In this document: piece after piece, positions 7,467 to 32,147 of the stretch
How positions within the stretch are numbered: position 1 is the stretch's first letter
Layout of the letters: each line of letters begins with the position of its first letter
DNA from: Thiotrichaceae bacterium
Lineage (GTDB): Bacteria > Pseudomonadota > Gammaproteobacteria > Thiotrichales > Thiotrichaceae
Length of the DNA stretch: 37,747 nucleotides
Direction: 5' to 3'
NCBI GenBank assembly: GCA_015490895.1
Contig: WFWY01000028.1
Span: forward strand, 1-37,747
Program-made: the position numbers and the translations under genes
Notes under the pieces: model-generated
The model's input: only the letters and a program-made list of their open reading frames with translations
What the model was told of the DNA's origin: nothing
Databases searched by the model: none

Positions 7467-8045
7467 TCAGCTATCCAGGGTGCATTCTGGTGAACAACAG
7501 TAACCACTAGCGGGCTTTACCACATGCGGCAAACCGGCAACCATTAGCGTCACATTATCGACAAGTTTTGCCAAACGCTGATGTAAACGTCCACTTTCGT
7601 CAACAAATTGCCGGGTTATTTCTCCCATCGGTACCACCCCCATACCTGTTTCATTACTGACCAGTATTAACTGTCCTGGCAAGGCAGGGACAATATCCAG
7701 TAGGTGCTGCATTTCTTCCTGCAACCATTCAGGTTCTGGCCGGGATAACAAATTCATCACCCACATGGTCAGGCAATCCACCAATACCAGGCGCTCAGAC
7801 TTACAGTAGTGTTGCAAACAGGTAGCCAGGGATAGGGGTTCTTCAACCGTGTGCCAATGTGGGGGACGATCTTCCTGATGCCGTTTTATGCGCGACCTGA
7901 TCTCGTTATCCAGAGGTTGGGCTGTTGCTACATAAATGACATCCTGGCCTGAATGAGAGGCCAGTTTTTCCGCGTAGGCGCTCTTACCGGAGCGTGCGCC
8001 CCCCAGTATTAAACAGCTATATGATTGAGTTTGAGCCATGGTCAT
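7467..8045 (-). CDS. cobU: Adenosylcobinamide kinase / adenosylcobinamide-phosphate guanylyltransferase
   Basis: CobU/CobP phosphorylates adenosylcobinamide and then transfers GMP to it, in nucleotide-loop assembly of cobalamin. The 192-residue protein has the P-loop GGARSGKS (15-22). Further family segments are YVATAQPLDNEIRSRIKRHQ (with the histidine used for guanylylation in the family) and LVSNETGMGVVP. Its ATG overlaps the 3' end of the TonB-like gene by 4 bp, so translation is probably coupled. No other cobalamin gene is visible in the window, so a salvage role is as likely as de novo synthesis. Confidence 0.95.
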   Translation of the reverse strand: MTMAQTQSYSCLILGGARSGKSAYAEKLASHSGQDVIYVATAQPLDNEIRSRIKRHQEDRPPHWHTVEEPLSLATCLQHYCKSERLVLVDCLTMWVMNLLSRPEPEWLQEEMQHLLDIVPALPGQLILVSNETGMGVVPMGEITRQFVDESGRLHQRLAKLVDNVTLMVAGLPHVVKPASGYCCSPECTLDS

Positions 8046-9004
8046 CGCAGCTCATAACGTAGTGATACAACAAAGTGCCAGCGCTTCCTGTGAAGTTTCG
8101 CCGGGATGGGGAATTGCCTGTTAATTTTTCTAACCGCCCGCAGTGTCGCCTGATCCAGTGATGAATACCCCGAACTTTGAGTGATTGTTATTTGCTGCAC
8201 AGTGCCATCATGCAAGATAACAAAGGACACCGTTGCCACTCCCTGATGTCGCATTTTACGGGCACGTTTGGGGTAGTGTTTGTTGGCATTAAGCGCCCGT
8301 TGTACTGCGCTCTGATAGGCCTGCTGCATGGCAGGGTCAGGGCTCCCGGCACGATTCCCTGCTTTTGAAGCAGCCTGGGGGACAGGTAGCGGCTGTGTGT
8401 TTTTTGCTGGAGCGGATAGTTGAGAGATTTGTGTGTTGAGCACCCGTTTAGCCGATTGTCCGGGTGCGGGTTTCGCAGTCGGCAGGGAACGGGACGGTTT
8501 CTGAATATGCTTCGGTATTACCGGACTTTGGGATTTATGCTGGATTTTCGGCCTCGGCTTATCCTGTCTTTTGTACCTTTTGGGTGCAGGCTTATTGTTG
8601 CTCCTGATGCTTTGTTTGTGTTTCGTCTTTTTCTTTATAGAGGATTGAATCACAGGTGTCCTATTCTTCTTTTCTTTCTTCTTTTCTTTTTCCTGTAACA
8701 GTGGTTTTCTACTGTGATTCTTTTCAAGTGCCGCAATGACAGAAACCGACACTGGTGATTGAGATCCAGCCGGCAATGACGCCCTGTCAGGCACTACCCT
8801 GGTAATACGACTTGCCGCCTGTTCTTCTTTCACAGTCTCCACGCCGGGGTTTTGAAGCTCCGGCGGGGTATACAGCAATTTGACCTCAACTGTTTTCTGT
8901 TGCAGCACGTCAGCCTGCTCTGGCTGCTTGATAACCTGCCAGAGAAGGCTGAACACACCAACGTGTAGTAAAACCGAGAATAACAGAGCCACCCGCGTAG
9001 TCAT
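8042..9004 (-). CDS. TonB-like energy transducer
   Basis: The 320-residue protein has one N-terminal membrane anchor (about residues 5-22, RVALLFSVLLHVGVFSLL). A long low-complexity periplasmic linker rich in Lys, Pro, Gln and Ser follows (roughly 90-225, including KEKKKEKKN). A C-terminal TonB domain (about 230-320) contains YPKRARKMRHQGVATVSFVI and the SGYSSLDQATLRAV segment. With ExbB/ExbD such proteins pass proton-motive force to outer-membrane receptors for siderophores or cobalamin. exbBD are not adjacent. It overlaps the short CLC gene and cobU by 4 bp each. The link to cobU suggests, without proving, service to a cobinamide/B12 receptor. Confidence 0.9.
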   Translation of the reverse strand: MTTRVALLFSVLLHVGVFSLLWQVIKQPEQADVLQQKTVEVKLLYTPPELQNPGVETVKEEQAASRITRVVPDRASLPAGSQSPVSVSVIAALEKNHSRKPLLQEKEKKKEKKNRTPVIQSSIKKKTKHKQSIRSNNKPAPKRYKRQDKPRPKIQHKSQSPVIPKHIQKPSRSLPTAKPAPGQSAKRVLNTQISQLSAPAKNTQPLPVPQAASKAGNRAGSPDPAMQQAYQSAVQRALNANKHYPKRARKMRHQGVATVSFVILHDGTVQQITITQSSGYSSLDQATLRAVRKINRQFPIPAKLHRKRWHFVVSLRYELR

Positions 9005-10326
9005 TGCAACCTGGTCCGTTCCACCTTGTCCGAAGCAGGCAGCCCGCGCATAAAATCTTCTGCCAGTGCCCGGTAAATAGGCTGGGGACTAATTATTTTG
9101 GATATGCCGTCAGCTATCAGACACGTCGCCATCAATGGTAACAAAATATTTTGATTACCCGTCATTTCCATAATGATCACCACTGCGGTAATCGGTGTTT
9201 GAACGACTCCTGTGAAATAAGCTGCCATGCCCAGCAGGGCAATCGTTGATATACTGGCAATCGGCAACCACTGTGATAGCACATTACCCAAACCGGCACC
9301 AATGGATAGTGAAGGTGCAAATATACCACCTGGAATACCAGTCCAGTAAGACAGCAATGTCACCAGTAGTTTGTAAAACGGAAACGCAGGATCAATATAC
9401 GCGTTACCCGCCAAAGCCAGTTTGGCCTCTTCATAACCAGTCCCCCAGGTTTGTCCGCCAGAAGCCAGACCTACCAGTGCCAGGACAATACCAATAGTGC
9501 CAGCCAATGCATAAGGGTGGCGCTGACGCAAAGGTGCTATGCGCCTGCCTGCATGTACCAGTAATGCACTAAAGCTACCCCCGAGCAAACCGCCAGTGAC
9601 ACCACATACCAGAACAACCAGTAAAATTGAAGGTAGCTGAACCCCTGTTTCAACAACACCGAAATAACTGTAATTACCGCTGAGCGCCAATGCCGTCAAA
9701 CCGGAAACGATAACAGCCGTCAAGACTGTTCCGCTGGTTTTGGATTCAAAGTTACGTGCCAGTTCTTCAATGGCAAAAACAATACCTGCCAGTGGCGTGT
9801 TGAATGCACCCGCCAATCCTGCGGCACTACCGGCAAGTATTAATCCGCGCCCAATATCATAATGCGGGAAACGTGCAAAACGGGTGAGTGAAAAAGCTAT
9901 CGAAGCGGCGATATGAATGGTAGGCCCTTCACGCCCAATGGAAGCACCGCTGGCAAGCCCCAGACAGATCATCAGCGCCTTGCCAATCGCAATACGAATA
10001 GACAACAGCTTGTAACGCAACCCTTTGTTACGTTTCATATGCAAGGCAGCAATCGCCTGTGGAATACCACTGCCTTCTGCCCCTGGAAAAAAGGTGCGCG
10101 TGATATAAATAATCAGCATTAGCCCCAATGGGGTGATAATAAAAGGCAACCAGGGCTTATCGGTAATCAGGTGTCTGAATAGTTCGGAAGATAAATCGCT
10201 ACCATAAGCTACCACTACCGCCGCCAGACCAACCAGTACCGCGCCGAGGAAAAAGACAATCCGGGTACGCCAGATCCTGGAGGATGTGAGCTGCTTAAAG
10301 GAGCGACGTAATTGACGACGATACAT
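9001..10326 (-). CDS. CLC H+/Cl- antiporter-like protein, short form (ClcA-like)
   Basis: This 441-residue membrane protein has all CLC signatures: GSGIPQ (85-90, central-chloride serine kept), GREGP (131-135, gating Glu133), the NTPLAG segment, and GIPGGIFAPS (330-339). After NTPLAG it reads FAIEELARNF. Glu188 aligns with Glu203 of E. coli ClcA, the intracellular proton glutamate. Both glutamates needed for coupled exchange are therefore present, and I infer a 2Cl-/H+ antiporter. In E. coli such antiporters support acid resistance. It has no CBS domains. It starts 35 bp after the long CLC gene and overlaps the TonB-like gene by 4 bp. Confidence 0.93.
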   Translation of the reverse strand: MYRRQLRRSFKQLTSSRIWRTRIVFFLGAVLVGLAAVVVAYGSDLSSELFRHLITDKPWLPFIITPLGLMLIIYITRTFFPGAEGSGIPQAIAALHMKRNKGLRYKLLSIRIAIGKALMICLGLASGASIGREGPTIHIAASIAFSLTRFARFPHYDIGRGLILAGSAAGLAGAFNTPLAGIVFAIEELARNFESKTSGTVLTAVIVSGLTALALSGNYSYFGVVETGVQLPSILLVVLVCGVTGGLLGGSFSALLVHAGRRIAPLRQRHPYALAGTIGIVLALVGLASGGQTWGTGYEEAKLALAGNAYIDPAFPFYKLLVTLLSYWTGIPGGIFAPSLSIGAGLGNVLSQWLPIASISTIALLGMAAYFTGVVQTPITAVVIIMEMTGNQNILLPLMATCLIADGISKIISPQPIYRALAEDFMRGLPASDKVERTRLQ

Positions 10327-10361
10327 ATGATGACCTGATTATCTGAAACCCTTAGCCTGTA

Positions 10362-12170
10362 TCACCAGGATGCGGTGCTTGTTTTGTGAGGTATATAAGC
10401 ATCTTCCACCGATTTTTTGGTCACTATACCGTAAATTCTGGAATTGACTGCCACCGTTTTTTCCTGAAAAACCACATAAAGTGCTTCATCCCCCTGTTCA
10501 AACCGGGTATGTGCCTGCATCAGGTTCGCTTGCAGGGAGATAGGGGACAAGTGCAAGCGTCTGGCGGGTATTTCCAGTAAATCAATCGTGTTGCTATCCG
10601 TGTTATCTATCCTTTGGCTATCCTGTTCTTCAAGTTGTAGATATTTAGCCAGTTCTGATACCGGCAGCAGGTTGCTCACGCCTCCTTCTTTATCATTAAC
10701 GATGATCCAGCGAACTTCCCGCTTTAGCAACAACTCGGCGTGTTCTCGTGACAGTAGCGGGTCATGTCGCTCAAAGCGGGAATCCAGTACGCTGGCAACA
10801 CCGACTCCGCGTAGCAACTGTAGCACCGGATTAATCGTATAATCCAGCCCGTTGGAACGCAACAGCGTGACAAACAGGGACTTTTTATTGAAAATCTCAC
10901 TGGCTGTTAATTGTGCAATCACAATCACCAACATACCCGGCATAATAATCGCCGGACTATAGGTTAACTCCATAATAGCCGTTAATGCCGCCAGGGGTGC
11001 CTGCAGACTGGCTCCCATCATGGCACCCATACCTAACAGCGCATAGGAACCAATATGTGAGACACCATCACCATACAAACTGCTGGCGACAATACCAACA
11101 ACGCCCCCCAATGTTGCCCCAATAAAAAAAGCGGGCCCAATCATACCACCGGGTATACCCAGCCCTACACTCAGGCTGGTCGCCAATATTTTCAGAAAAG
11201 CCAATGCAAGCAACGACCACAGGGCAAATTCGCCAATCAGGGTAGCATTCACCGTGTCATAACCAATCCCTAGTATCTCCGGCTGTAATAAACCCAGCAG
11301 ACCAACCAGAAAACCGGCAGCCAGAATGCGCCACCAGATTTGATATTGCTGCGTTTTGGTCGTGATATACGTCAGAATATGATTAAACACCGCAGCACAG
11401 GCACCTACCAGCAAACCAAGCACCAGGACGACAGGCAACTCAACCAGTGACAATGCCGGTAAATCAGGCATGGTAAAGGCCGGATCACCCCCCAGTACTG
11501 CATTTGACAAGGCGGTAGCAACCACCGCTGCCAGCATTACCGGAATGAAACTGTTGAGAGCATACTCCATCATAATCACCTCCAGCGCAAAAATAACACC
11601 CGCCAGAGGTGTATTAAATGAAGCGGCTATACCTGCGGCTGCACCACTGGCAACCAGAGTACGAATACTGTTATTTGGAAGCTTGATGGCCTGCCCAAAC
11701 AGACTGGCAATCCCTGCACCCAAATAGGCATGAGGCCCCTCCCTGCCAACAGAGTGCCCGCCAGTAATGGCAATGGCCGCGCCAATAAACTGCATGAAAA
11801 AACCACGCACCGTTAAATAACCCTGGTGATAAGCAACGCGCTCCATGACTCTGGCAACACCCAGTACACGTATCCCCTTTGACCATCTATAGAACAAAAT
11901 AGCCAGTAAAACACTGGCCAGCAGAGGCAGCACAAAATGTTGCCAGGCGGGCAATGCCTCGTAATTTTCCGGGCCGTTACCGGGTAACAGGTAATCCTGG
12001 GTTTTTTCCACCAGTAAACGAAACAGAACAATCACTCCGCCTGCCAGAAAACCCGTAAGCAGACCAAAAAAAGCCAGATAGAGCAGCGCATCCGGACGTG
12101 CCAGGCGAAAGATCATTCCTTCCAGCCAGCGATGCCACCTGGCTTTTATAATCTGTTTGGGTGTTATCAT
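10362..12170 (-). CDS. CLC chloride channel-like protein with C-terminal CBS region
   Basis: This 602-residue protein has a CLC membrane domain (about 25-435), then a cytoplasmic CBS-type region (about 455-590; HDPLLSREHAELLLKREVRW, and RLHLSPISLQANLMQAHTRF). GREGP is at 142-146 with the gating glutamate Glu144. The usual GSGIP is replaced by VLGVA (102-106), so the central chloride serine is Leu103. The proton-glutamate position after NTPLAG is Val198 (FALEVIM), as in CLC channels. I infer a passive, channel-like anion path possibly gated by nucleotide at the CBS pair. It overlaps the mscS-like gene by 4 bp. Confidence 0.92.
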   Translation of the reverse strand: MITPKQIIKARWHRWLEGMIFRLARPDALLYLAFFGLLTGFLAGGVIVLFRLLVEKTQDYLLPGNGPENYEALPAWQHFVLPLLASVLLAILFYRWSKGIRVLGVARVMERVAYHQGYLTVRGFFMQFIGAAIAITGGHSVGREGPHAYLGAGIASLFGQAIKLPNNSIRTLVASGAAAGIAASFNTPLAGVIFALEVIMMEYALNSFIPVMLAAVVATALSNAVLGGDPAFTMPDLPALSLVELPVVLVLGLLVGACAAVFNHILTYITTKTQQYQIWWRILAAGFLVGLLGLLQPEILGIGYDTVNATLIGEFALWSLLALAFLKILATSLSVGLGIPGGMIGPAFFIGATLGGVVGIVASSLYGDGVSHIGSYALLGMGAMMGASLQAPLAALTAIMELTYSPAIIMPGMLVIVIAQLTASEIFNKKSLFVTLLRSNGLDYTINPVLQLLRGVGVASVLDSRFERHDPLLSREHAELLLKREVRWIIVNDKEGGVSNLLPVSELAKYLQLEEQDSQRIDNTDSNTIDLLEIPARRLHLSPISLQANLMQAHTRFEQGDEALYVVFQEKTVAVNSRIYGIVTKKSVEDAYIPHKTSTASW

Positions 12171-13270
12171 TGTGAAGCAGCTGAAGAAGCGTGTGGTACC
12201 CGTAAATCAGGCTGATGAATGACATGGGTTAGTGGGGTAGCCAGGGAAATCTGATGTTCGTTGGCCGTTTCCAGAAAAATATCCAGTAATTGCTGCCGGA
12301 TAGATGGCAATGCCTCAATCATCTTGGTGTAGTAATACACGCGCCATTCAACCGCATGATCACCCAGCTCATGAATGCCTATTTCCAGCTCCCGGCTACT
12401 TTCGATAGCGATAGATTTATCAGCTCGTATTTTTTCATACGCTGCCTGTAACATAGTTCGTACAGCATGACTGGAAATATCATAGCTAATTTTAAACCTC
12501 AATGACTCCCGCAACCCCTTGGCTGAGGCAAACTTGGACAGGTTATGAATAGTGAAATCCCGCAAACGTGAATTGCGAATCATGATTCGGTGGTTATCAA
12601 CCAGGTTCAGAATCACCGTATGAAACACTTTGGTTTTATAGACCAGTGCGTAGATGGTTTCATTGTCATGAAACTCGACAATATCGCCCTCTTCCAGCAT
12701 ATCGCTATTCAGGATAATCAACCCGCTAAAGATATCAGGTGCCCAGACAGCATTGGTCAGTGCCAGAAATACACCGATAAAACCAATAACCCCGCCAGCT
12801 TGCAACCAGGAGTCCAGGCCCAGTAACCGAACCACACTGATTAGGGCAATAATACCGATAAATACACTACTAAAAATACTCAGCAAACGTGTGTGATAAG
12901 TAGAAACAAAACGCTTTTTACCCCCCACATCACGCTCGCGCCCGTAATAACGCAAAATAACATAGGCCAGAAGCTGACTTACCAGATAGGCAAGATAAAT
13001 AATACCCAGTACGCCCAGTACCAGAAATGCCCCCCCGTGTTGCTTGCCTTGTTGTGTGTAAAAAAAGAAATAAACAATAAAAACAAGCAGGCTTAAGGCT
13101 CGGATAATGTGGATTTTACGTTCAATCCCGGCGCTGTTATCCGGCTCATGATAAATGGCGAGTACGAGCTGACGAGCAAAGATTAACAGCAGAAAATTGA
13201 TAGCCAGAATGAAATAATCCTGTAGGTCCAGGCTGGCTATATTAGGGAACAATGAAAGTATGTCTTGCAT
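12167..13270 (-). CDS. MscS-family mechanosensitive ion channel
   Basis: The 367-residue protein has four to five hydrophobic helices in the first 200 residues. The MscS pore-lining and beta-domain stretch follows (AGGVIGFIGVFLALTNAVWA, then FSGLIILNSDMLEEGDIVEF) and a C-terminal alpha/beta vestibule domain (about 255-345). Family members open under membrane tension and release solutes on hypo-osmotic shock. It starts 14 bp after the gyrA stop and its end overlaps the long CLC start by 4 bp (ATGA). It is longer than E. coli MscS (286 residues) because of extra N-terminal helices, as in YbdG-type members. Confidence 0.92.
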   Translation of the reverse strand: MQDILSLFPNIASLDLQDYFILAINFLLLIFARQLVLAIYHEPDNSAGIERKIHIIRALSLLVFIVYFFFYTQQGKQHGGAFLVLGVLGIIYLAYLVSQLLAYVILRYYGRERDVGGKKRFVSTYHTRLLSIFSSVFIGIIALISVVRLLGLDSWLQAGGVIGFIGVFLALTNAVWAPDIFSGLIILNSDMLEEGDIVEFHDNETIYALVYKTKVFHTVILNLVDNHRIMIRNSRLRDFTIHNLSKFASAKGLRESLRFKISYDISSHAVRTMLQAAYEKIRADKSIAIESSRELEIGIHELGDHAVEWRVYYYTKMIEALPSIRQQLLDIFLETANEHQISLATPLTHVIHQPDLRVPHASSAASQ

Positions 13271-18418: not shown

Positions 18419-18730
18419 ATGACAGACAAAGAGATTCAAATGCAGGCTGCTGCCTTTCGCAGCCTGGTCGAACATTTGCAACAACGCACGGATGTACAAA
18501 ATATTGATCTGATGAATCTTGCCGGGTTTTGCCGAAACTGTCTAAGTAAATGGTATCTTGCTGCTGGCGAGGCACTGGATGCAGATATCAACTACGAACA
18601 GGCCTGCGAGGTCGTCTACGGCATGCCCTACTCGCAATGGAAAGAAACCCACCAAACACCGGCGAGTGCAGAACAACTCAAGACATTTGAGAAAACCAAA
18701 CCCCTGCATGCAAAAATCAGTGGCCACTAG
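18419..18730 (+). CDS. DUF1244 family protein
   Basis: This 103-residue protein matches the DUF1244 family: FRSLVEHLQQRTDVQNIDLMNLAGFCRNCLSKWY is its conserved block, with a Cys38-x2-Cys41 pair. The family has no established biochemical role; the cysteine pair may bind metal. The same frame is open upstream to 18359, but starting at ATG 18419 removes a 20-residue hydrophobic leader absent from the family and gives the normal length. The downstream pyruvyl transferase-like gene probably overlaps its 3' end by about 23 bp. Confidence 0.88.
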   Translation: MTDKEIQMQAAAFRSLVEHLQQRTDVQNIDLMNLAGFCRNCLSKWYLAAGEALDADINYEQACEVVYGMPYSQWKETHQTPASAEQLKTFEKTKPLHAKISGH

Positions 18731-19640
18731 CACCGCCCGTAAAACCGGGGAGGCTGGAGTCAACGACAAGCCCAGGGTAGTTTTAATTGGTGATACCAGC
18801 CTCAATTCACCCCACTTTGGCTGCCAGCTTGTCGGACAAACGTTCCGGGAGCAATTCAGCCGCTGCGGACTTGATCTGGTCGCCAGCCTGCCGTTTAATT
18901 ATGAACGATTTGCAGCCAGTCCAGCTCTCTTTGAAAAAGCTGATCTGCTGATTATCAATGGTGAAGGTTCCATCCACCATGGTCGCTATCATGAACTGGT
19001 CAAGCTTGCTACAGACTACCCTGCCGCACTGGTTAATTGTGTCTATCAGGAAAACCCACACTGGCCAGAGCTTGAGAACTTTCACTATATTTCAGCGCGG
19101 GAATCCCTGAGTGCCGAGGAAATCCGTTCACAAGGTGTTAACTGCGAGGTAGTGCCGGATGTGCTCTTCGCGTCATCTTTATTGAATTCATTTGTATGCC
19201 AGGAGCCTGTCAAGACGACAGGTGTCACTGACAATGCACAAAAAACGATCTACCGCCTGGGCCCTTTCAAGGTACGCCTGAGACCGGGGCGTTCTCCCAA
19301 ACAGAAAATGGTTTCGGATTATTTAAATTTCCTGTGTGAACACCAAAGATTATGTATCGGACGGTTTCATGCCGCGATTGCTGCCAGCGTGTTACGCATA
19401 CCCTTCTCAAGCTGGGATTCCAACACCTGGAAAATGCGTGGGCTAATGCAAGACATGGGCATGTCCCATTTGCATTTTTCTGATCGACAGTCAGCACTAG
19501 CGGCAGTCCCTGCTGTATTCGACCCCAAAATCAGCACGTTTGCACAACAGGCCAAAGAAAAGATAGAAACGATGTTTGATACCCTGGCAACCATCGCAGG
19601 TAAAAACGCGGCTCACCGCCACACCGATAGCGTGGGCTAA
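18708..19640 (+). CDS. Polysaccharide pyruvyl transferase-like protein
   Basis: About 310 residues if translation starts at ATG 18708, inside the end of the DUF1244 gene. The frame is open further upstream, but that part is a shadow of DUF1244. The fold is suggested by VVLIGDTSLNSPHFGCQLVG at the N-terminus, LLIINGEGSIHH in the middle, and the C-terminal IGRFHAAIAASVLRIPFSSW, which matches the family's R-[FL]-H...A...P-F block. Members add ketal pyruvate to sugars of exopolysaccharide or cell wall, or are glycosyltransferase-like without proven activity. It ends 3 bp before the asparagine synthase gene, so the two form an obvious pair. No sugar-synthesis genes are nearby, and the substrate is unknown. 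Confidence 0.72.
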   Translation: MQKSVATSTARKTGEAGVNDKPRVVLIGDTSLNSPHFGCQLVGQTFREQFSRCGLDLVASLPFNYERFAASPALFEKADLLIINGEGSIHHGRYHELVKLATDYPAALVNCVYQENPHWPELENFHYISARESLSAEEIRSQGVNCEVVPDVLFASSLLNSFVCQEPVKTTGVTDNAQKTIYRLGPFKVRLRPGRSPKQKMVSDYLNFLCEHQRLCIGRFHAAIAASVLRIPFSSWDSNTWKMRGLMQDMGMSHLHFSDRQSALAAVPAVFDPKISTFAQQAKEKIETMFDTLATIAGKNAAHRHTDSVG

Positions 19641-25325: not shown

Positions 25326-28300
25326 ATGCACCACGTCTTAACCGGGTTTATTTTCAGTCTCAGCACCCTCTTGCTGGTCGCTTGCAACACGAATGAAAAC
25401 AACGAAAATACCACAGCCCGCTCAGCAGTTTCCTCAGCGGAAAAGACTTTAGTCACTGACAAACAAACAGCTTCCAGGCACAAATGGGCAACACTGATCG
25501 ACGCACAAACACAGGGCAAGGTATCACGCTATACCCCTATTTACATTCGCTTCCGGCAACCTGTTATTGAAATCAGCCAGATCGGAAAAACAGCCAGCGG
25601 GATTCTTCAAATACAACCGGCTGTCAAGGGAACAGCTATTTTTGAAAACACGCAGCAGATCACGCTGGTACCCGACACACCACTACAAGCCAGTCAACGC
25701 TATACGGTGACGCTACAACCCAATGGCTTGCAAGGCATGACACCAACAGACGCCCCCTACACTTTCAGTTTTAGCACCATCCCGCTGGAGTATGAGCTGC
25801 AAACCGATGCCTTGCAGGTTGACCCGAACAATGCCTCACTCATGCGCCTGTCAGGAAGCGTTCTGTTTTCTGACCGTGTAGAGATGGATGCTGTTAGCAA
25901 ATTGCTGACAGCCACGCTACAGGATAAACCTTTACCGGTTCGCTGGCAGATGGACGATAGCGGCAAACAGTTTCGCTTTTATCTCGAATCACTACCCCGT
26001 GAAACCTATGCAACGGATCTGCTGCTAAGCTGGAATGGTACTTCTCTGGGCATTGACACCCAGGGCAAAACAACCGTTACCCTGCCTGCTATCAATACCT
26101 TTAAGGTACTGGATATTCGGCGCATCACCCCCCTTGCTGACAAGCCTTATATTCGCATTACCCTGTCAGCTATCCGGGATCAGGAACAAAACCTCAAGGG
26201 ATTAATCCGCCTGGAACCCATCCCGGATATAGAGCACCCAAACCCCAAGACTGTTCCCTTTAAACTCAGCAGCGAAGGCAACCTGATCAAACTGTTCCCC
26301 AGGGAAGGAGCCAGTGGCCGTTTCAACGTAGCTATCGAGCCTGGCCTGCGAGGAAAAAACGGTAATGCACTGGGCAAGAGAATCAACCAGACCATCGAGC
26401 TGGAAACCATCAAACCGGGCATCCGGTTTGTCGGCAAGGGACATATTTTACCGGACAGTAAAATACTTGAAATTCCCTTTGAGGCTGCCAATGTGGATGC
26501 CGTCAAGGTCAAAGCCTTTCTGATCAACCCTGATAATGTCGCGCAGTTTTTCCAGGTCAATACCCTACAGGATAATAGTGAGCTACAGCGGGTAGGACGT
26601 TATCTCTGGCAAAAAACCATTCCCCTGTCGGCTGCCAATTTTGCCCAGTGGAATCGCTATACCCTGGATGCGAGCGAATTGCTGCGCTCCCACCCGGGCG
26701 GGCTGTTTCACCTGGAGTTATCCATTGACCGACGTTATTCACGCTATCACTGTCCAGCGGGCACACCCAAAACTCTGGCAGCAGATCAACCCTTGCAGAA
26801 CCATGAAGATAATGATGTAGTCGAGGCCTCCGGCTGGGATGGCGTAGAAACCCTCACTGAGAGCGCAGAACAGTTGCTGAACGACTGGCGCTGGGAAGAT
26901 CGAAATAAACCCTGTACCGATGCCTATTTCCAGTTTGATGACAATCCGGTAGCAGACAGCAGAAACTTTATCGCCAGCAATATCGGCTTGCTGGCCAAGC
27001 AGGATGCCCATGGTAAACTACTTATTGTAGCCACCGACCTGAAAACCTCAACGCCTCTGCCTGCGGTAGATTTGCGGGTTCAGAACTTCCAGTATCAAAC
27101 ACTGGCAACCGCCACAACCAATGATGAAGGCATGGCAACAGTCTCTCTTGAAAAGACACCTTTTTTACTGATTGCGAGTAAAAACAAGGAAAAGGCCTAT
27201 CTGAAGCTTAACGGTTCTACGGCATTGCCCGTCAGTCATTTCGATGTCGGCGGCAGTCAATTAAAAGAGGGATTAAACGGGACAATTTATGGTGAACGCG
27301 GTGTCTGGCGACCTGGCGATACGATTTATCTGACTTTTGTATTGCAGGACAAGGATAAAGTCATCCCGGCTAATCATCCCGTCAGCATGCAACTGTATGA
27401 CCCCAAAGGTCGCCTGGTACAAAGCCTCACCAACACTACACCCACAGGTAATTTTTACACCTTCGCCCTGCAAACTGACGAAAACGCAGAAACGGGAAAA
27501 TGGCTGGCAAAAGCCAGACTCGGCAATACAACCTTCTCCAAAACACTGACCATTGAAACCGTACGACCCAATCGTTTGAAAATTGATCTGGACTTTGGTA
27601 CCGATGTGTTGCTGGGCTATGAACCACCACCGCAGGGAAAACTGTTTGCACAGTGGCTGCATGGTGCGACAGCCAGTGGCCTGAAAGCAGACATTGCTGT
27701 CCGCTTTCGTGAGAAGACAACCCGTTTTGAACGTTTCGCCAATTACCAGTTTGATGACCCGGCACGCTCCCTGGACAGTAGTGAACAAAAACTGCTGGAA
27801 GGCCGGCTGGATGAGACTGGCACGCTACGTTTCAAAAAGGCTTTTGCACCACAATCCCGTGCCCCTGGTATGCTCAGCGCCTGGTTTACCTCACGCGTTT
27901 TTGAACAGGGCGGCGGATTCAGTATTAGCAAGCACTATCTGGATTATCACCCTTATGCCCACTATGTAGGTATCAAGCTCCCTAAAGGCGATGCCAGCCG
28001 CAACATGCTGCTCACCGACCAGACACACCGTGTAGAAATAGCCAGTCTCACGGCATCCGGAGAACCTGCTGATTTGCAACGTGTACAAGTAACACTTTAT
28101 AAAGTGGACTGGAAATGGTGGTGGGACAAGTCCCCGGAATCACTGGCCGCTTACAGCAATGCCAACCACCGCCGCAAACTACAGCAATCCATCATACAAA
28201 CCCATCAGGGTCGTGGTTACTGGGACTTTGCCATCAAGTACCCGGACTGGGGACGCTACCTGATCCGTGCCTGTGACCTGGAGGGTAAACACTGTGCCGG

Positions 28301-30965
28301 GCAAACCGTCTATATTGACTGGCCGGGTTGGGCAGGACGAGCCCAGCAACAGGGAAGTAGTGCAGCGGCCACCCTGGATCTATTTTCGGATAAAAAATCC
28401 TATCAAGTCGGTGAAACCGCCATTGTCCAGCTACCCAGGGCTTCCCGGGGGCGTGCACTGGTCAGTGTTGAAAGTGGCAGCGATATCATCAGTCAGCAAT
28501 GGGTAGAATTTAACGAACAACGCCAGCAAGTTGAAATACCCATCAAGGAAACAATGGCGCCGAATGTTTATGTCAGTGTCAGCCTGCTACAACCACACGC
28601 GAACAAACAGAATGACCGCCCTATTCGTATGCTGGGAATAATTCCATTGCAGGTTACAGACCCCAATACCCGGCTCAACCCCATGATGACCGCAGCCGAT
28701 GAGTGGAAACCCTCAAGCACACATAGTGTTGTTGTGGCCGAAGCCAATGGTAAGCCAATGAACTATACACTGGCACTGGTCGATGAAGGGTTATTGGGAC
28801 TCACCCGTTTCAAAACACCCGACCTGCATGCTTTTTTCTATCGCAAGCAGGCACTGGGTATCAAGCACTGGGATCTGTTCGATGATGTTGTCGGCGCGTA
28901 CGGTGGCAAGCTAGAACGTCTGCTGGCGTTAGGTGGAGGTGATGACGTACAACTTGATGATGCGGCCAATCGCCCCAAGCGCTTTCCCCCGGTAGTACAG
29001 TTTCTGGGGCCTTTCCAGCTGCAAAAAGGTGCAACACGCACCCATGAGTTTAATCTTCCTGCCTACCTGGGAGCTGTCCGTGTCATGCTTGTTGCCGGTC
29101 ACGAAAATGCCTATGGCCAGGCCGAGAAGTCGATCTTTGTGCGCCAGCCCCTGATGATTCAACCTAACCTGCCCCGTGTCCTGAGCACCCGGGAAGAAGT
29201 TATTGTGCCCGTGACCCTGTTCACAACCCGGGAAGACATCAAGGAGGTCGTTGTCACCGTCAAGACTGATGAGCTGCTGCAAGCTGAAAACCCGCAAACT
29301 CGTGTCGTATTTGAAAAAACCGGTGACAAGTTGGCCTTTGTACGTATCCGGGCAGGCACAAAGCCAGGACAAAGCACCTTACGTTTCACGGCACGCAGTC
29401 ACCAATACCAAAGTGAAGCCGAGATACATCTCGACATTCGCCGTCCTGCAACCCTGACGACACGCACTGAAACACACACAATCAATGCAGGAGAAACAGG
29501 ACGTTACCCGGTCACTGCATATGGTATTGAAGGCACAAACCGTGCGCTGCTCGAACTCTCCAGCGCACCTCCCCTGGGATTGGAAAAACAACTGGACTAC
29601 CTGGTAACATATCCACACGGCTGCCTTGAGCAGACCACCTCGGCGGCGTTTCCACAAATTTTCCTGAATCGCCTGATACAAACAGACCCGCAACGGGAAA
29701 AACGGATTGAACAACATGTCAACAAGGCTATAGAGCGTATCCGTAGCTATCAGCTGGCGAACGGTGATTTCAGCTATTGGCCAGGCATGAATGAACAAAA
29801 TAACTGGGCAAGCCTTTATGCAGGTCACTTCCTGCTGGAAGCCAAACAGGCCGGTTACCTGGTATCACCCACCTTGCTGACAGACTGGTTACGCTATCAG
29901 GCTACCACAGCACAGCGCTGGTTAGCTGGCAGCAAGGAGTACGCCTATACACAGGCCTACCGCCTGTATTTGCTGGCACTGGCAGGCAAGCCCGAACTGG
30001 GAGCCATGAATCGCTTCCGGGAAAACAGTCAGCCCGGCCTGAAAGCCAAATGGTTATTGGCAGCCGCCTATCAGCTTGCCGGTCAGCAAGATGCCGCCAG
30101 ACAAAGCCTGGAAGGTCTGGTTGCCAACCCCCAGGCAACAACCATCCAGCACCCGGATACTTTCAGTTCACGCCTCAGCGACCTGGGACTACAGCTCACT
30201 GCTCTTACCACCCTGGGCAAGTATCAGGATGCAGATCATTTCGTCAATGCTATTGCACAGGAGTTACAACAACCCAATCAGAATACCCATGGAATTGCCT
30301 GGGCACTGATTGCCGTTTCACGCTACATTAGCTCAGCACAAAACACAGATAAAAATGCAGATGTCCGCGCTGAGTTAGCCTGGGGAGAAGACCCACAGAT
30401 CCCAGTTTCAGGGAAAAAAGCCTACCTGCGCCATGTATTGGGCGAACTGACACAGACAAGTCAGGAACTGATCATCAAAAACCCCTCTTCCGTTCCGCTG
30501 TATGCCAACATTATTACCCAGGGAGTGCCTGAAGCAGGTCATGAAGTGGCCGTTGCCAATGGCCTGAAAATGACCGTGAATTATTATACTGCCGAGAATA
30601 AACAACCGCTTGACCTGTCAGCCCCTCTCCCCCAGGGCAAGGACATACTTATAACACTTGATGTACACAACATCAGCGGGCAAACGCTGGAAAATATTGC
30701 ACTCACCCAGTTGCTGCCAAGTGGTATGGAAATCACTCAGGCAAACTCTAGCAGTGACACCCTTGATTATCTGGACATCCGTGATAACCGGGTTAATTTC
30801 TACTTTTCCCTGGAAGACAAGGAAAGCAAACACTTTCAGGTAACCCTAAACCCTGCCTATGCAGGGCGCTTCTATCTGCCTGCCGTCAGTGCTGCTGCGA
30901 TGTATCAGCCTGCATTGCAGGCCCGGGTAGCAGGGCAATGGATCCACATATCTGCAAACAATTAA
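25326..30965 (+). CDS. Alpha-2-macroglobulin family lipoprotein
   Basis: A 1879-residue giant. The lipoprotein signal is MHHVLTGFIFSLSTLLLVAC with lipidation at Cys20 (lipobox LVAC; next residue Asn, so no inner-membrane Asp signal). A series of macroglobulin beta domains follows, including a region like the MG2 domain (LNGTIYGERGVWRPGDTIYL, about 650). The A2M core holds the thioester motif Cys1433-Leu-Glu-Gln in YPHGCLEQTTS. An alpha-helical thioester domain and a C-terminal receptor-binding-like domain complete it. Bacterial A2Ms (E. coli YfhM) trap proteases in the periplasm and often sit beside pbpC; no pbpC is here. AAGGGAG precedes the ATG. selU follows 24 bp downstream. Confidence 0.95.
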   Translation: MHHVLTGFIFSLSTLLLVACNTNENNENTTARSAVSSAEKTLVTDKQTASRHKWATLIDAQTQGKVSRYTPIYIRFRQPVIEISQIGKTASGILQIQPAVKGTAIFENTQQITLVPDTPLQASQRYTVTLQPNGLQGMTPTDAPYTFSFSTIPLEYELQTDALQVDPNNASLMRLSGSVLFSDRVEMDAVSKLLTATLQDKPLPVRWQMDDSGKQFRFYLESLPRETYATDLLLSWNGTSLGIDTQGKTTVTLPAINTFKVLDIRRITPLADKPYIRITLSAIRDQEQNLKGLIRLEPIPDIEHPNPKTVPFKLSSEGNLIKLFPREGASGRFNVAIEPGLRGKNGNALGKRINQTIELETIKPGIRFVGKGHILPDSKILEIPFEAANVDAVKVKAFLINPDNVAQFFQVNTLQDNSELQRVGRYLWQKTIPLSAANFAQWNRYTLDASELLRSHPGGLFHLELSIDRRYSRYHCPAGTPKTLAADQPLQNHEDNDVVEASGWDGVETLTESAEQLLNDWRWEDRNKPCTDAYFQFDDNPVADSRNFIASNIGLLAKQDAHGKLLIVATDLKTSTPLPAVDLRVQNFQYQTLATATTNDEGMATVSLEKTPFLLIASKNKEKAYLKLNGSTALPVSHFDVGGSQLKEGLNGTIYGERGVWRPGDTIYLTFVLQDKDKVIPANHPVSMQLYDPKGRLVQSLTNTTPTGNFYTFALQTDENAETGKWLAKARLGNTTFSKTLTIETVRPNRLKIDLDFGTDVLLGYEPPPQGKLFAQWLHGATASGLKADIAVRFREKTTRFERFANYQFDDPARSLDSSEQKLLEGRLDETGTLRFKKAFAPQSRAPGMLSAWFTSRVFEQGGGFSISKHYLDYHPYAHYVGIKLPKGDASRNMLLTDQTHRVEIASLTASGEPADLQRVQVTLYKVDWKWWWDKSPESLAAYSNANHRRKLQQSIIQTHQGRGYWDFAIKYPDWGRYLIRACDLEGKHCAGQTVYIDWPGWAGRAQQQGSSAAATLDLFSDKKSYQVGETAIVQLPRASRGRALVSVESGSDIISQQWVEFNEQRQQVEIPIKETMAPNVYVSVSLLQPHANKQNDRPIRMLGIIPLQVTDPNTRLNPMMTAADEWKPSSTHSVVVAEANGKPMNYTLALVDEGLLGLTRFKTPDLHAFFYRKQALGIKHWDLFDDVVGAYGGKLERLLALGGGDDVQLDDAANRPKRFPPVVQFLGPFQLQKGATRTHEFNLPAYLGAVRVMLVAGHENAYGQAEKSIFVRQPLMIQPNLPRVLSTREEVIVPVTLFTTREDIKEVVVTVKTDELLQAENPQTRVVFEKTGDKLAFVRIRAGTKPGQSTLRFTARSHQYQSEAEIHLDIRRPATLTTRTETHTINAGETGRYPVTAYGIEGTNRALLELSSAPPLGLEKQLDYLVTYPHGCLEQTTSAAFPQIFLNRLIQTDPQREKRIEQHVNKAIERIRSYQLANGDFSYWPGMNEQNNWASLYAGHFLLEAKQAGYLVSPTLLTDWLRYQATTAQRWLAGSKEYAYTQAYRLYLLALAGKPELGAMNRFRENSQPGLKAKWLLAAAYQLAGQQDAARQSLEGLVANPQATTIQHPDTFSSRLSDLGLQLTALTTLGKYQDADHFVNAIAQELQQPNQNTHGIAWALIAVSRYISSAQNTDKNADVRAELAWGEDPQIPVSGKKAYLRHVLGELTQTSQELIIKNPSSVPLYANIITQGVPEAGHEVAVANGLKMTVNYYTAENKQPLDLSAPLPQGKDILITLDVHNISGQTLENIALTQLLPSGMEITQANSSSDTLDYLDIRDNRVNFYFSLEDKESKHFQVTLNPAYAGRFYLPAVSAAAMYQPALQARVAGQWIHISANN

Positions 30966-30989: not shown

Positions 30990-32147
30990 TTGAGGATCAG
31001 CGGCAAACCCGATAGTCTCTCAAACATGATGATTCATTTTGAAAAAGACCTGCCGACTGTTGCTGACCTTGAAGCTGTTTTTACCCACAACACCCCGCTT
31101 CTGGATGTCCGTGCGCCTGTTGAATTTGTCCAGGGAGCCTTCCCGATGGCTCACAACTGGCCACTTATCAATGATGATGAACGTCACCAGATCGGCCTGC
31201 GCTACAAGCACAAGGGTCAGGATGAGGCCATTAAGCTGGGTGCCGAGCTTATCGACACAACACGCCGTCAACAACGCGTCTCCCACTGGAAAACCTTTGT
31301 TCGCCAGCACCCTGACGCTGTATTGTATTGTTTTCGTGGAGGCATGCGCTCAAAAATAGCCCAGCAATGGCTTTATGAGGCAACCGGAATCAAATATCCG
31401 CGGATCTCCGGTGGTTATAAAGCCATGCGACGCTTCCTGATTGAACGCAGTGAACAGCTCATTCAACAAACCTCGTTTGTTTTGCTCAGCGGCAGTACCG
31501 GCTCAGGTAAAACCCGATTTCTTGAAGAACTACCTTCTGCCATTGATCTGGAAGGACTGGCGAATCACCGTGGCTCTGCTTTTGGTGCCTACGCCAGCCC
31601 ACAACCAACTCAGATTAATTTTGAAAATACACTTGCCATACAACAGCTTAAGCTGTCACAGAAGCAACAACAGCCGGTCTATCTGGAAGATGAAGGACGT
31701 AATATCGGTGCTATTCACCTTCCCAGAAAGCTGTATGAAAAAATGTCAACCTCACCTGTTGTGTTACTCCAGGTAGACGTTCATGAACGTCTGCAAACCA
31801 GCATTCAGGAATACGCCATCTCGATGCTCACAGATTTTCAGCAGCATTATGGAGAAGATCAGGGCTTTGAGCGTTATCGTCACGCCCTGCTAAACAGCCT
31901 GGACAAAATTCAAAAACGCCTGGGTGGACAACGTCACAAAAACCTGCGTACACTGGCCGAACAAGCCCTCCAGACCCAGCAACGCACAGGCAGCACAGAA
32001 GCACATCTGCCATGGGTGAATATCCTTTTGACGGAATATTATGACCCTATGTACCATTATCAGCTTGCCCAGAAAAAAGAACGTATTATCTTTACCGGGA
32101 ATCATCAGGAAGTGCTTGAGTTTATTCAAAACACATCCAGTGAATGA
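30990..32147 (+). CDS. selU: tRNA 2-selenouridine synthase (SelU/MnmH)
   Basis: This enzyme replaces sulfur of 2-thiouridine at wobble U34 of tRNA-Lys/Glu/Gln by selenium using selenophosphate, with a geranylated intermediate. An N-terminal rhodanese domain (LLDVRAPVEFVQGAFP) carries the catalytic Cys114 in VLYCFRGGMRS. A P-loop domain follows (GSTGSGKT, 168-175). Two starts compete: TTG at 30990 has an excellent AGGAGG 9 nt upstream, while ATG at 31026 has no Shine-Dalgarno but gives an N-terminus nearer to E. coli YbbB. The Shine-Dalgarno favours TTG. It is 24 bp after the macroglobulin gene and overlaps the next gene by 8 bp. MnmA, maker of its substrate, is 2 kb downstream. Confidence 0.94.
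   Translation: MRISGKPDSLSNMMIHFEKDLPTVADLEAVFTHNTPLLDVRAPVEFVQGAFPMAHNWPLINDDERHQIGLRYKHKGQDEAIKLGAELIDTTRRQQRVSHWKTFVRQHPDAVLYCFRGGMRSKIAQQWLYEATGIKYPRISGGYKAMRRFLIERSEQLIQQTSFVLLSGSTGSGKTRFLEELPSAIDLEGLANHRGSAFGAYASPQPTQINFENTLAIQQLKLSQKQQQPVYLEDEGRNIGAIHLPRKLYEKMSTSPVVLLQVDVHERLQTSIQEYAISMLTDFQQHYGEDQGFERYRHALLNSLDKIQKRLGGQRHKNLRTLAEQALQTQQRTGSTEAHLPWVNILLTEYYDPMYHYQLAQKKERIIFTGNHQEVLEFIQNTSSE

Follow-up and report, generated by a model that had tools for sequence, protein, structure and literature searches.

Among described CLC proteins, E. coli ClcA (CLC-ec1) is a Cl−/H+ exchanger, CmCLC and the animal CLCs with CBS domains join a CLC membrane domain to a tail formed by a CBS pair, and CLC-ck2 of Citrobacter koseri, reportedly described by Phillips in 2012, is said to be a slow Cl−/H+ antiporter that lacks filter residues, carries Ile at the proton-glutamate (Glu-in) position, E203 in ClcA, and is inhibited by sulfate. 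In ClcA, K131A and K131M slow transport by a factor of more than ten and raise the number of Cl− moved per H+ from 2 to about 3 (PMC12248016), F357A and F357L give a coupling of about 4.3:1 (PMC7274781), and E203A still pumps H+, with a coupling of about 75 for E203Q (PMC7253180). Proton pumping in the absence of a titratable Glu-in residue is described for several homologues (Phillips 2012, Stockbridge 2012 and Feng 2010, cited in PMC7253180); antiporters with nondissociable residues at this position exist, yet every known channel has valine there, according to PMC3519907. E. coli also encodes ClcB, annotated in the K-12 genome as a putative chloride:H+ antiporter and termed elsewhere a channel of largely unknown function (PMC12624714), and double loss of clcA and clcB cuts acid survival more than single loss (PMC10394335). 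Here we analyse a 37,747-nucleotide stretch of contig WFWY01000028.1 from a Thiotrichaceae bacterium (the window), in which a gene for a ClcA-type CLC follows a longer CLC gene whose product replaces five residues regarded as important for ClcA transport. The long protein belongs to a large, little-studied set of CLCs.

The two genes, hereafter the long and the short CLC, share the minus strand in head-to-tail order, the long gene first and 35 bases between them, and no other CLC was detected in the draft genome (2.78 Mb, 95% complete). Both match Pfam Voltage_CLC (PF00654; cut-off 24.8 bits) strongly, the long protein at E 2.3e-85 (287.3 bits) and the short at E 1.5e-89 (301.1 bits), bearing out the adjacent pair that an earlier sequence-only reading of the window had proposed. 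An AlphaFold2 (AF2) model of the long CLC (predicted local distance difference test score, pLDDT, 93.5) aligned with ClcA (1ots_B) at a VIA Z of 49.3 and a root-mean-square deviation (rmsd) of 2.7 over 408 residues, whereas sequence identity between the two is 26%. Within this shared fold the gating glutamate and the E202 equivalent are kept, and ClcA S107, K131, E203, F357 and Y445 become L103, Q127, V198, I344 and F433. The sequence-only reading had picked out V198, the motif VLGVA in place of GSGIP and the gating glutamate in GREGP of both proteins; alignment to ClcA agrees on all of these (with Leu103 at S107, and E133 in the short and E144 in the long CLC as gating glutamates), HMMER alignment also sets V198 on the valine of the solved ClcA E203V mutant (3ejz), and no other acidic residue is placed at the E203 position itself. 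The K131, F357 and Y445 replacements go beyond what that reading had listed.

In trees, the long CLC falls on the ClcB side rather than with ClcA (45-leaf clade that includes ClcB, support 0.925; 73 leaves, support 0.94). Its NCBIfam scores were 255.3 bits to the ClcB-like model PRK01862 and 126.0 bits to ClcB, under the respective cut-offs of 482 and 425, and it likewise falls short of the curated ClcA cut-off. It resembles E. coli ClcB, as read from the K-12 genome, and the PRK01862 proteins in having Val at Glu-in and no GSGIP. Unlike ClcB (418 residues), which keeps K131, F357 and Y445 and is tail-less, it has lost these three residues, and an extra C-terminal domain further distinguishes it from ClcA. 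Set beside CLC-ck2 by description, it shares with that protein a reportedly non-titratable Glu-in position and missing filter residues. Its closest named relatives are from Thiotrichaceae bacteria, with 65-76% identity over the best segment.

Replacement of Lys131 by Gln proved to be common to many proteins. Gln occupied this position in 140 (138 distinct) of 259 usable alignment rows, a set in which many rows were gathered by similarity to the long CLC, so that the proportion is no frequency estimate; the 259 rows comprise 252 distinct core sequences, 6 of 265 having been excluded for too few aligned core columns. It was also found in 15 of the 89 CLCs counted in a class-wide sample, which is non-random and consists of 30 loci from one search and 60 hand-picked regions (90 CLCs kept, 89 in the counts). 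Counting without alignment, by reading the residue 15 positions before the gating motif, matched the alignment in all 242 rows that could be scored, with 17 motif-less rows unscored. A phylum-wide search returned Gln together with Val at Glu-in in 29 of 29 best loci from other genomes and in 1 of 20 hand-picked lower-scoring regions. The Gln131 sequences formed one 57-leaf group with two intruders (support 0.538) within a 60-leaf group (support 1.0), and in a wider 71-leaf group (support 0.745) lysine was absent from 69 leaves (Gln, Ser, Glu, Ala or His), the remaining two having one Lys and one Arg.

The other replacements accompany this one. With gaps scored as residue present, all five ClcA residues (Ser107, Lys131, Glu203, Phe357 and Tyr445) were missing in 129 of the 140 Gln131 rows and four were missing in the other 11. 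The Glu-in position held Val in 138 rows, Leu in one and Ile in one, whereas the gating glutamate, Glu202 (ClcA numbering) and Phe190 were kept in 140 of 140; Glu202 was present in every usable row of a further count (202/202, with 4 of 206 rows excluded for too few aligned core columns). To our knowledge, channels keep the equivalents of S107, F357 and Y445 and so, with K131, four of the five residues that the long CLC group loses; the pattern therefore fits neither known class. A preprint (PMC12248016; journal version PMC12873427) describes Lys131 as universally conserved across transporters and channels alike, whereas the long CLC has Q127 at this buried position. Literature searches on tandem bacterial CLCs, on natural K131 loss and on ClcB-like proteins from sulphur bacteria, with subscription papers mostly outside their reach, turned up no account of the group. 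An acidic residue four positions after Glu-in occurs in 124 of the 140 Gln131 rows (123 Glu, 1 Asp), and was considered as a replacement at the proton site; the same acid is less frequent among the other aliphatic rows (17 of 36 and 6 of 18) and the Glu-type rows (4 of 58), but its presence there means that it is not exclusive to the group.

Seven Thiotrichaceae rows (L021-L025, L027 and L028) were misplaced at Glu-in by the 265-row alignment, leaving the Gln131 counts unaffected. After realignment they show Glu at Glu-in and Arg at K131, and the corrected counts are 65 Glu-type rows (58 with all five residues) and 36 aliphatic rows with Lys or Arg. Two of the seven keep Ser, Phe and Tyr at 107, 357 and 445. 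The other five (L023, L024, L025, L027 and L028) keep Glu-in and have Gly, Arg, Ile and His at 107, 131, 357 and 445, so members of the five-residue set are also lost outside the aliphatic type. Elsewhere in the Glu-type clade, one short-type CLC (L030, genome G049) has Gln at Glu-in (FAIEQ) and VGVFAPT aligned in place of GREGP. Outside the window's class, L262-L266 are tail-less Gln131 CLCs of about 432 residues with VDREGPG, two of them with in-frame stops; a short-type neighbour was unseen within their fetched flanks.

The sequence-only reading had taken Val198 as the mark of a channel, a diagnosis that we reject. E. coli ClcB carries the same valine, Glu-in in the class-wide sample was Glu in 44 of 89 CLCs and Val, Leu or Ile in 45, and ClcA E203A pumps protons. 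Given that these aliphatic residues are common and that exchangers without a titratable Glu-in exist, the residue fits either transport mode: the long CLC may still be uncoupled, but a single-residue argument is insufficient to say so. Trees separate the Glu type (ClcA and the short CLC) deeply from the aliphatic type (ClcB and the long CLC), the exception in the first tree being two Glu-in leaves on the aliphatic side.

The same reading had assigned a CBS region to the long CLC, and here the predicted fold stood while family recognition did not. Pfam CBS (PF00571) gave no match in the window's long CLC at E ≤ 1; among 54 relatives, 12 matched, the best at 3.3e-5. Modelled alone by AF2, the tail (pLDDT 90.9) returned a Foldseek list whose 50 rows shown were dominated by CBS-domain proteins, ClC-3, ClC-5 and CNNM included (best E 8.8e-7), and structural comparison gave a VIA Z of 12.1 at an rmsd of 4.6 over 139 aligned residues. 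From these models, the tail is predicted to fold like a CBS pair. The whole long model, over residues 28-589, aligned with 3org_A (Z 43.1, rmsd 9.4). The predicted architecture of a CLC membrane domain with a CBS-pair tail is that of CmCLC and the animal CBS CLCs, from which the long CLC differs in that its tail is unrecognised by Pfam. Some members of the Gln131 group are tail-less. Taken as a whole, the interpretation in the sequence-only reading is partly supported.

The short CLC appears, by sequence, to be an ordinary ClcA-type protein. Its best NCBIfam match is PRK05277 ClcA (215.4 bits, under the equivalog cut-off of 350), and it clusters with E. coli ClcA in the tree. Alignment to ClcA shows the same residues at seven named positions, S107, K131, E148, E202, E203, F357 and Y445, the fifth of these being Glu188, as the sequence-only reading had it. 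The ClcA E113 position holds Ile, which is common among Glu-type CLCs. A coupled Cl−/H+ exchanger, also proposed in that reading, is the natural prediction from the seven retained residues.

The pair of genes recurs. In the window's family, a long and a short CLC are adjacent in the same order in 6 of 63 genomes (G000, G003, G005, G019, G030 and G310), and in a seventh (G308) they lie on separate contigs, each ending near the expected junction; by tblastn, the two genes of a pair may overlap by as much as about 30 bases or lie up to about 185 bases apart. Among loci found by similarity to the long CLC, a short CLC adjoined in 5 of 80, some of the others having incomplete flanks. Searching from the short side, among the best 30 of 51 short-type matches (in 50 of 369 genomes) five had a long-type CLC upstream: one is the window, and a second and a third family contribute two genomes each. 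In these latter families the long-type partners are tail-less, and Gln131 is present in 3 of the 4 genomes, those in which that part of the protein is present. A diverged CLC followed by a standard CLC is thus found in three bacterial families and 10 genomes, with differing neighbours. The paired short types fall in one 14-leaf clade, 12 of whose leaves are paired (support 0.995; rows include repeat loci). Long partners from the window's family, in contrast, nest among unpaired ones (a 10-leaf node with 4 unpaired, support 0.998), and those of the other two families stand elsewhere in the tree, the deep joining node being unsupported (0.004). With one short clade and scattered long partners, a single exchanger line appears to have acquired diverged CLC partners on more than one occasion, and the recurring arrangement hints at a shared job for the two proteins.

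We tentatively favour, at somewhat short of an even chance, a reading in which the short CLC is a Cl−/H+ exchanger and the long CLC an anion transporter that is gated by its glutamate, has a remodelled anion site and is only loosely coupled to H+. The short protein would exchange 2 Cl− per 1 H+, as ClcA does. The long protein would be a dimeric CLC in which E144 opens and closes the anion path and protons reach E144 through the water portal at E197 (ClcA E202). Its central anion site, remodelled so as to do without the lysine, the hydroxyls of serine and tyrosine, the central phenylalanine (Phe-cen) and Glu-in, would bind chloride with low affinity and leave H+ coupling slow and loose, as in ClcA K131 and F357 mutants and, reportedly, CLC-ck2. 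The CBS-like tail would probably tune the activity of the long CLC, and the two genes, likely co-produced, may act as a charge and chloride shunt in the inner membrane when the cell meets acid, salt or osmotic stress. Retention of the E148 and E202 equivalents throughout the Gln131 rows argues for constraint on the proton-handling glutamate and for a continued role of protons, in gating at least.

Several points weigh against this reading. Mutations of S107 and Y445 uncouple ClcA (recounted in PMC12248016), and five individually harmful replacements could, in combination, abolish coupling in the long CLC. If the mutant effects were additive, the protein would be poorly coupled; at its low identity to ClcA, residue effects may not transfer, and the pairing is known from just 10 genomes. 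A warning against summing the effects of single mutants comes from CLC-ck2, the closest comparison, reportedly a slow antiporter despite missing filter residues and Ile at Glu-in.

That the long CLC is instead a passive, uncoupled anion path (a channel or an uncoupled carrier) beside a coupled exchanger, as the sequence-only reading held, seems to us rather unlikely. Valine at Glu-in is what every known channel has (PMC3519907), and the lost S107 and Y445 equivalents, whose mutation uncouples ClcA (PMC12248016), point the same way, as does the further loss of K131 and F357; yet Val, Leu and Ile are ordinary in bacterial CLCs including E. coli ClcB, coupling is compatible with a non-titratable Glu-in (PMC7253180), and the other four replacements are un-channel-like, K131 being conserved in channels (PMC12248016). 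The joint and fairly constant change of the whole site, with all five residues gone from 129 of 140 rows, would be explained if the long CLC were a coupled transporter of a non-chloride substrate such as sulfate, another oxyanion or an organic anion, and its named relatives include many sulphur bacteria (Thiotrichaceae, Sedimenticola and Chromatiaceae) as well as Marinobacter; CLC-ck2, another protein with filter residues missing, is reportedly inhibited by sulfate. Similar proteins nevertheless occur in the genomes of many families and the taxonomic leaning may merely mirror the origin of the query, and we consider such a substrate unlikely. The broader idea that the Gln131 group is a third CLC functional class, which would keep the gating glutamate and the E202 portal, dispense with the other residues held to define chloride binding and proton coupling, perhaps use the +4 acid for protons, carry a non-chloride anion and, in some bacteria, form a matched pair with a neighbouring standard exchanger, likewise strikes us as improbable.

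Adjacency within one protein family might also suggest a recent tandem duplication with one copy decaying, but the 26% identity of the long and short proteins, the deep split in the trees and the intact, widely conserved residues led us to reject this as scarcely credible. For identity of the long CLC as a CLC-F fluoride/proton antiporter the case is weak: only a tRNA in the window reached the Rfam gathering score, an absence of a fluoride riboswitch that does not in itself exclude CLC-F. The features discussed here are collected in Table 1.

Table 1. Coordinates in the window of the CLC genes, their residues aligned with ClcA and the adjoining genes.
Feature	Position	Strand	Basis
TonB-like gene	8042..9004	-	PF03544, E 8.1e-20
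Short CLC, 441 residues, ClcA-type (Glu-type), predicted Cl−/H+ exchanger	9001..10326	-	PF00654, PRK05277, tree with E. coli ClcA
Short CLC Glu188 codon, ClcA E203 (Glu-in) position	9763..9765	-	Alignment to ClcA
Short CLC Glu133 codon, gating glutamate (ClcA E148), in GREGP	9928..9930	-	Alignment to ClcA
Short CLC Lys116 codon, ClcA K131 position, kept	9979..9981	-	Alignment
Long CLC, 602 residues, diverged ClcB-side group, Gln at K131	10362..12170	-	PF00654, PRK01862, AF2 model
Long CLC, CBS-pair-like C-terminal domain (predicted), residues 445-592	10395..10838	-	AF2 of tail, Foldseek, VIA
Long CLC Phe433 codon, ClcA Y445 position	10872..10874	-	Phe in 129/140 Gln131 rows
Long CLC Ile344 codon, ClcA F357 (Phe-cen) position	11139..11141	-	Ile 130, Val 10 (n = 140)
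Long CLC Glu202 codon, acid four residues after Val198	11565..11567	-	Acid in 124/140 Gln131 rows
Long CLC Val198 codon, ClcA E203 (Glu-in) position	11577..11579	-	Relatives: 52 Val, 1 Leu, 1 Ile (n = 54)
Long CLC Glu197 codon, ClcA E202 (water organiser)	11580..11582	-	54/54 relatives, 140/140 Gln131 rows
Long CLC Glu144 codon, gating glutamate (ClcA E148), in GREGP	11739..11741	-	Glu in 54/54 relatives, 140/140 Gln131 rows
Long CLC Gln127 codon, ClcA K131 position	11790..11792	-	Alignment and ungapped offset count
Long CLC Leu103 codon, ClcA S107 position (VLGVA for GSGIP)	11862..11864	-	Alignment
MscS-like channel gene	12167..13270	-	PF00924, E 1.3e-4 (weak match, diverged)

The surrounding genes are tightly packed. 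The start of the long CLC overlaps the stop of the MscS-like gene by 4 bases, with gyrA 14 bases upstream of the latter; the stop of the short CLC and the start of the TonB-like gene share 4 bases, as do the TonB-like gene and the CobU gene next in line. The arrangement looks like a single operon. A promoter scan gave 17 hits against a shuffled mean of 12.5 (standard deviation (sd) 3.7), near chance, and a terminator scan gave an excess, 18 against a shuffled mean of 9.6 (sd 3.9). A phage origin was considered, and a PHROGs search at E 0.001 returned zero matches for either CLC; a plasmid search returned 172 records, every one below 60% identity. An MscS-like gene also lies upstream of the pair at one other locus (L033) and was undetected at the remaining pair loci, where the flanks are in some cases short. 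In Acidihalobacter, chloride-channel genes are described as adjoining a ygg operon (PMC6396713). Elsewhere in the window, on the plus strand, positions 25326-30965 encode a 1879-residue bacterial alpha-2-macroglobulin-like protein with MG2, bMG3, bMG5, bMG6, bMG10, A2M, bait and TED domains. After it comes an open reading frame (30990-32147, 385 residues) that, like another on the same strand (18558-19640, 360 residues), is without a Pfam match at E 1e-5.

Current views of how CLCs couple owe most to single-residue tests in one E. coli protein. A natural group in which five such residues are replaced together while the E148 and E202 equivalents are kept would offer a direct test of what coupling and anion choice need, and the standard exchanger encoded in tandem with the long CLC would serve as an internal control inside the same cell.

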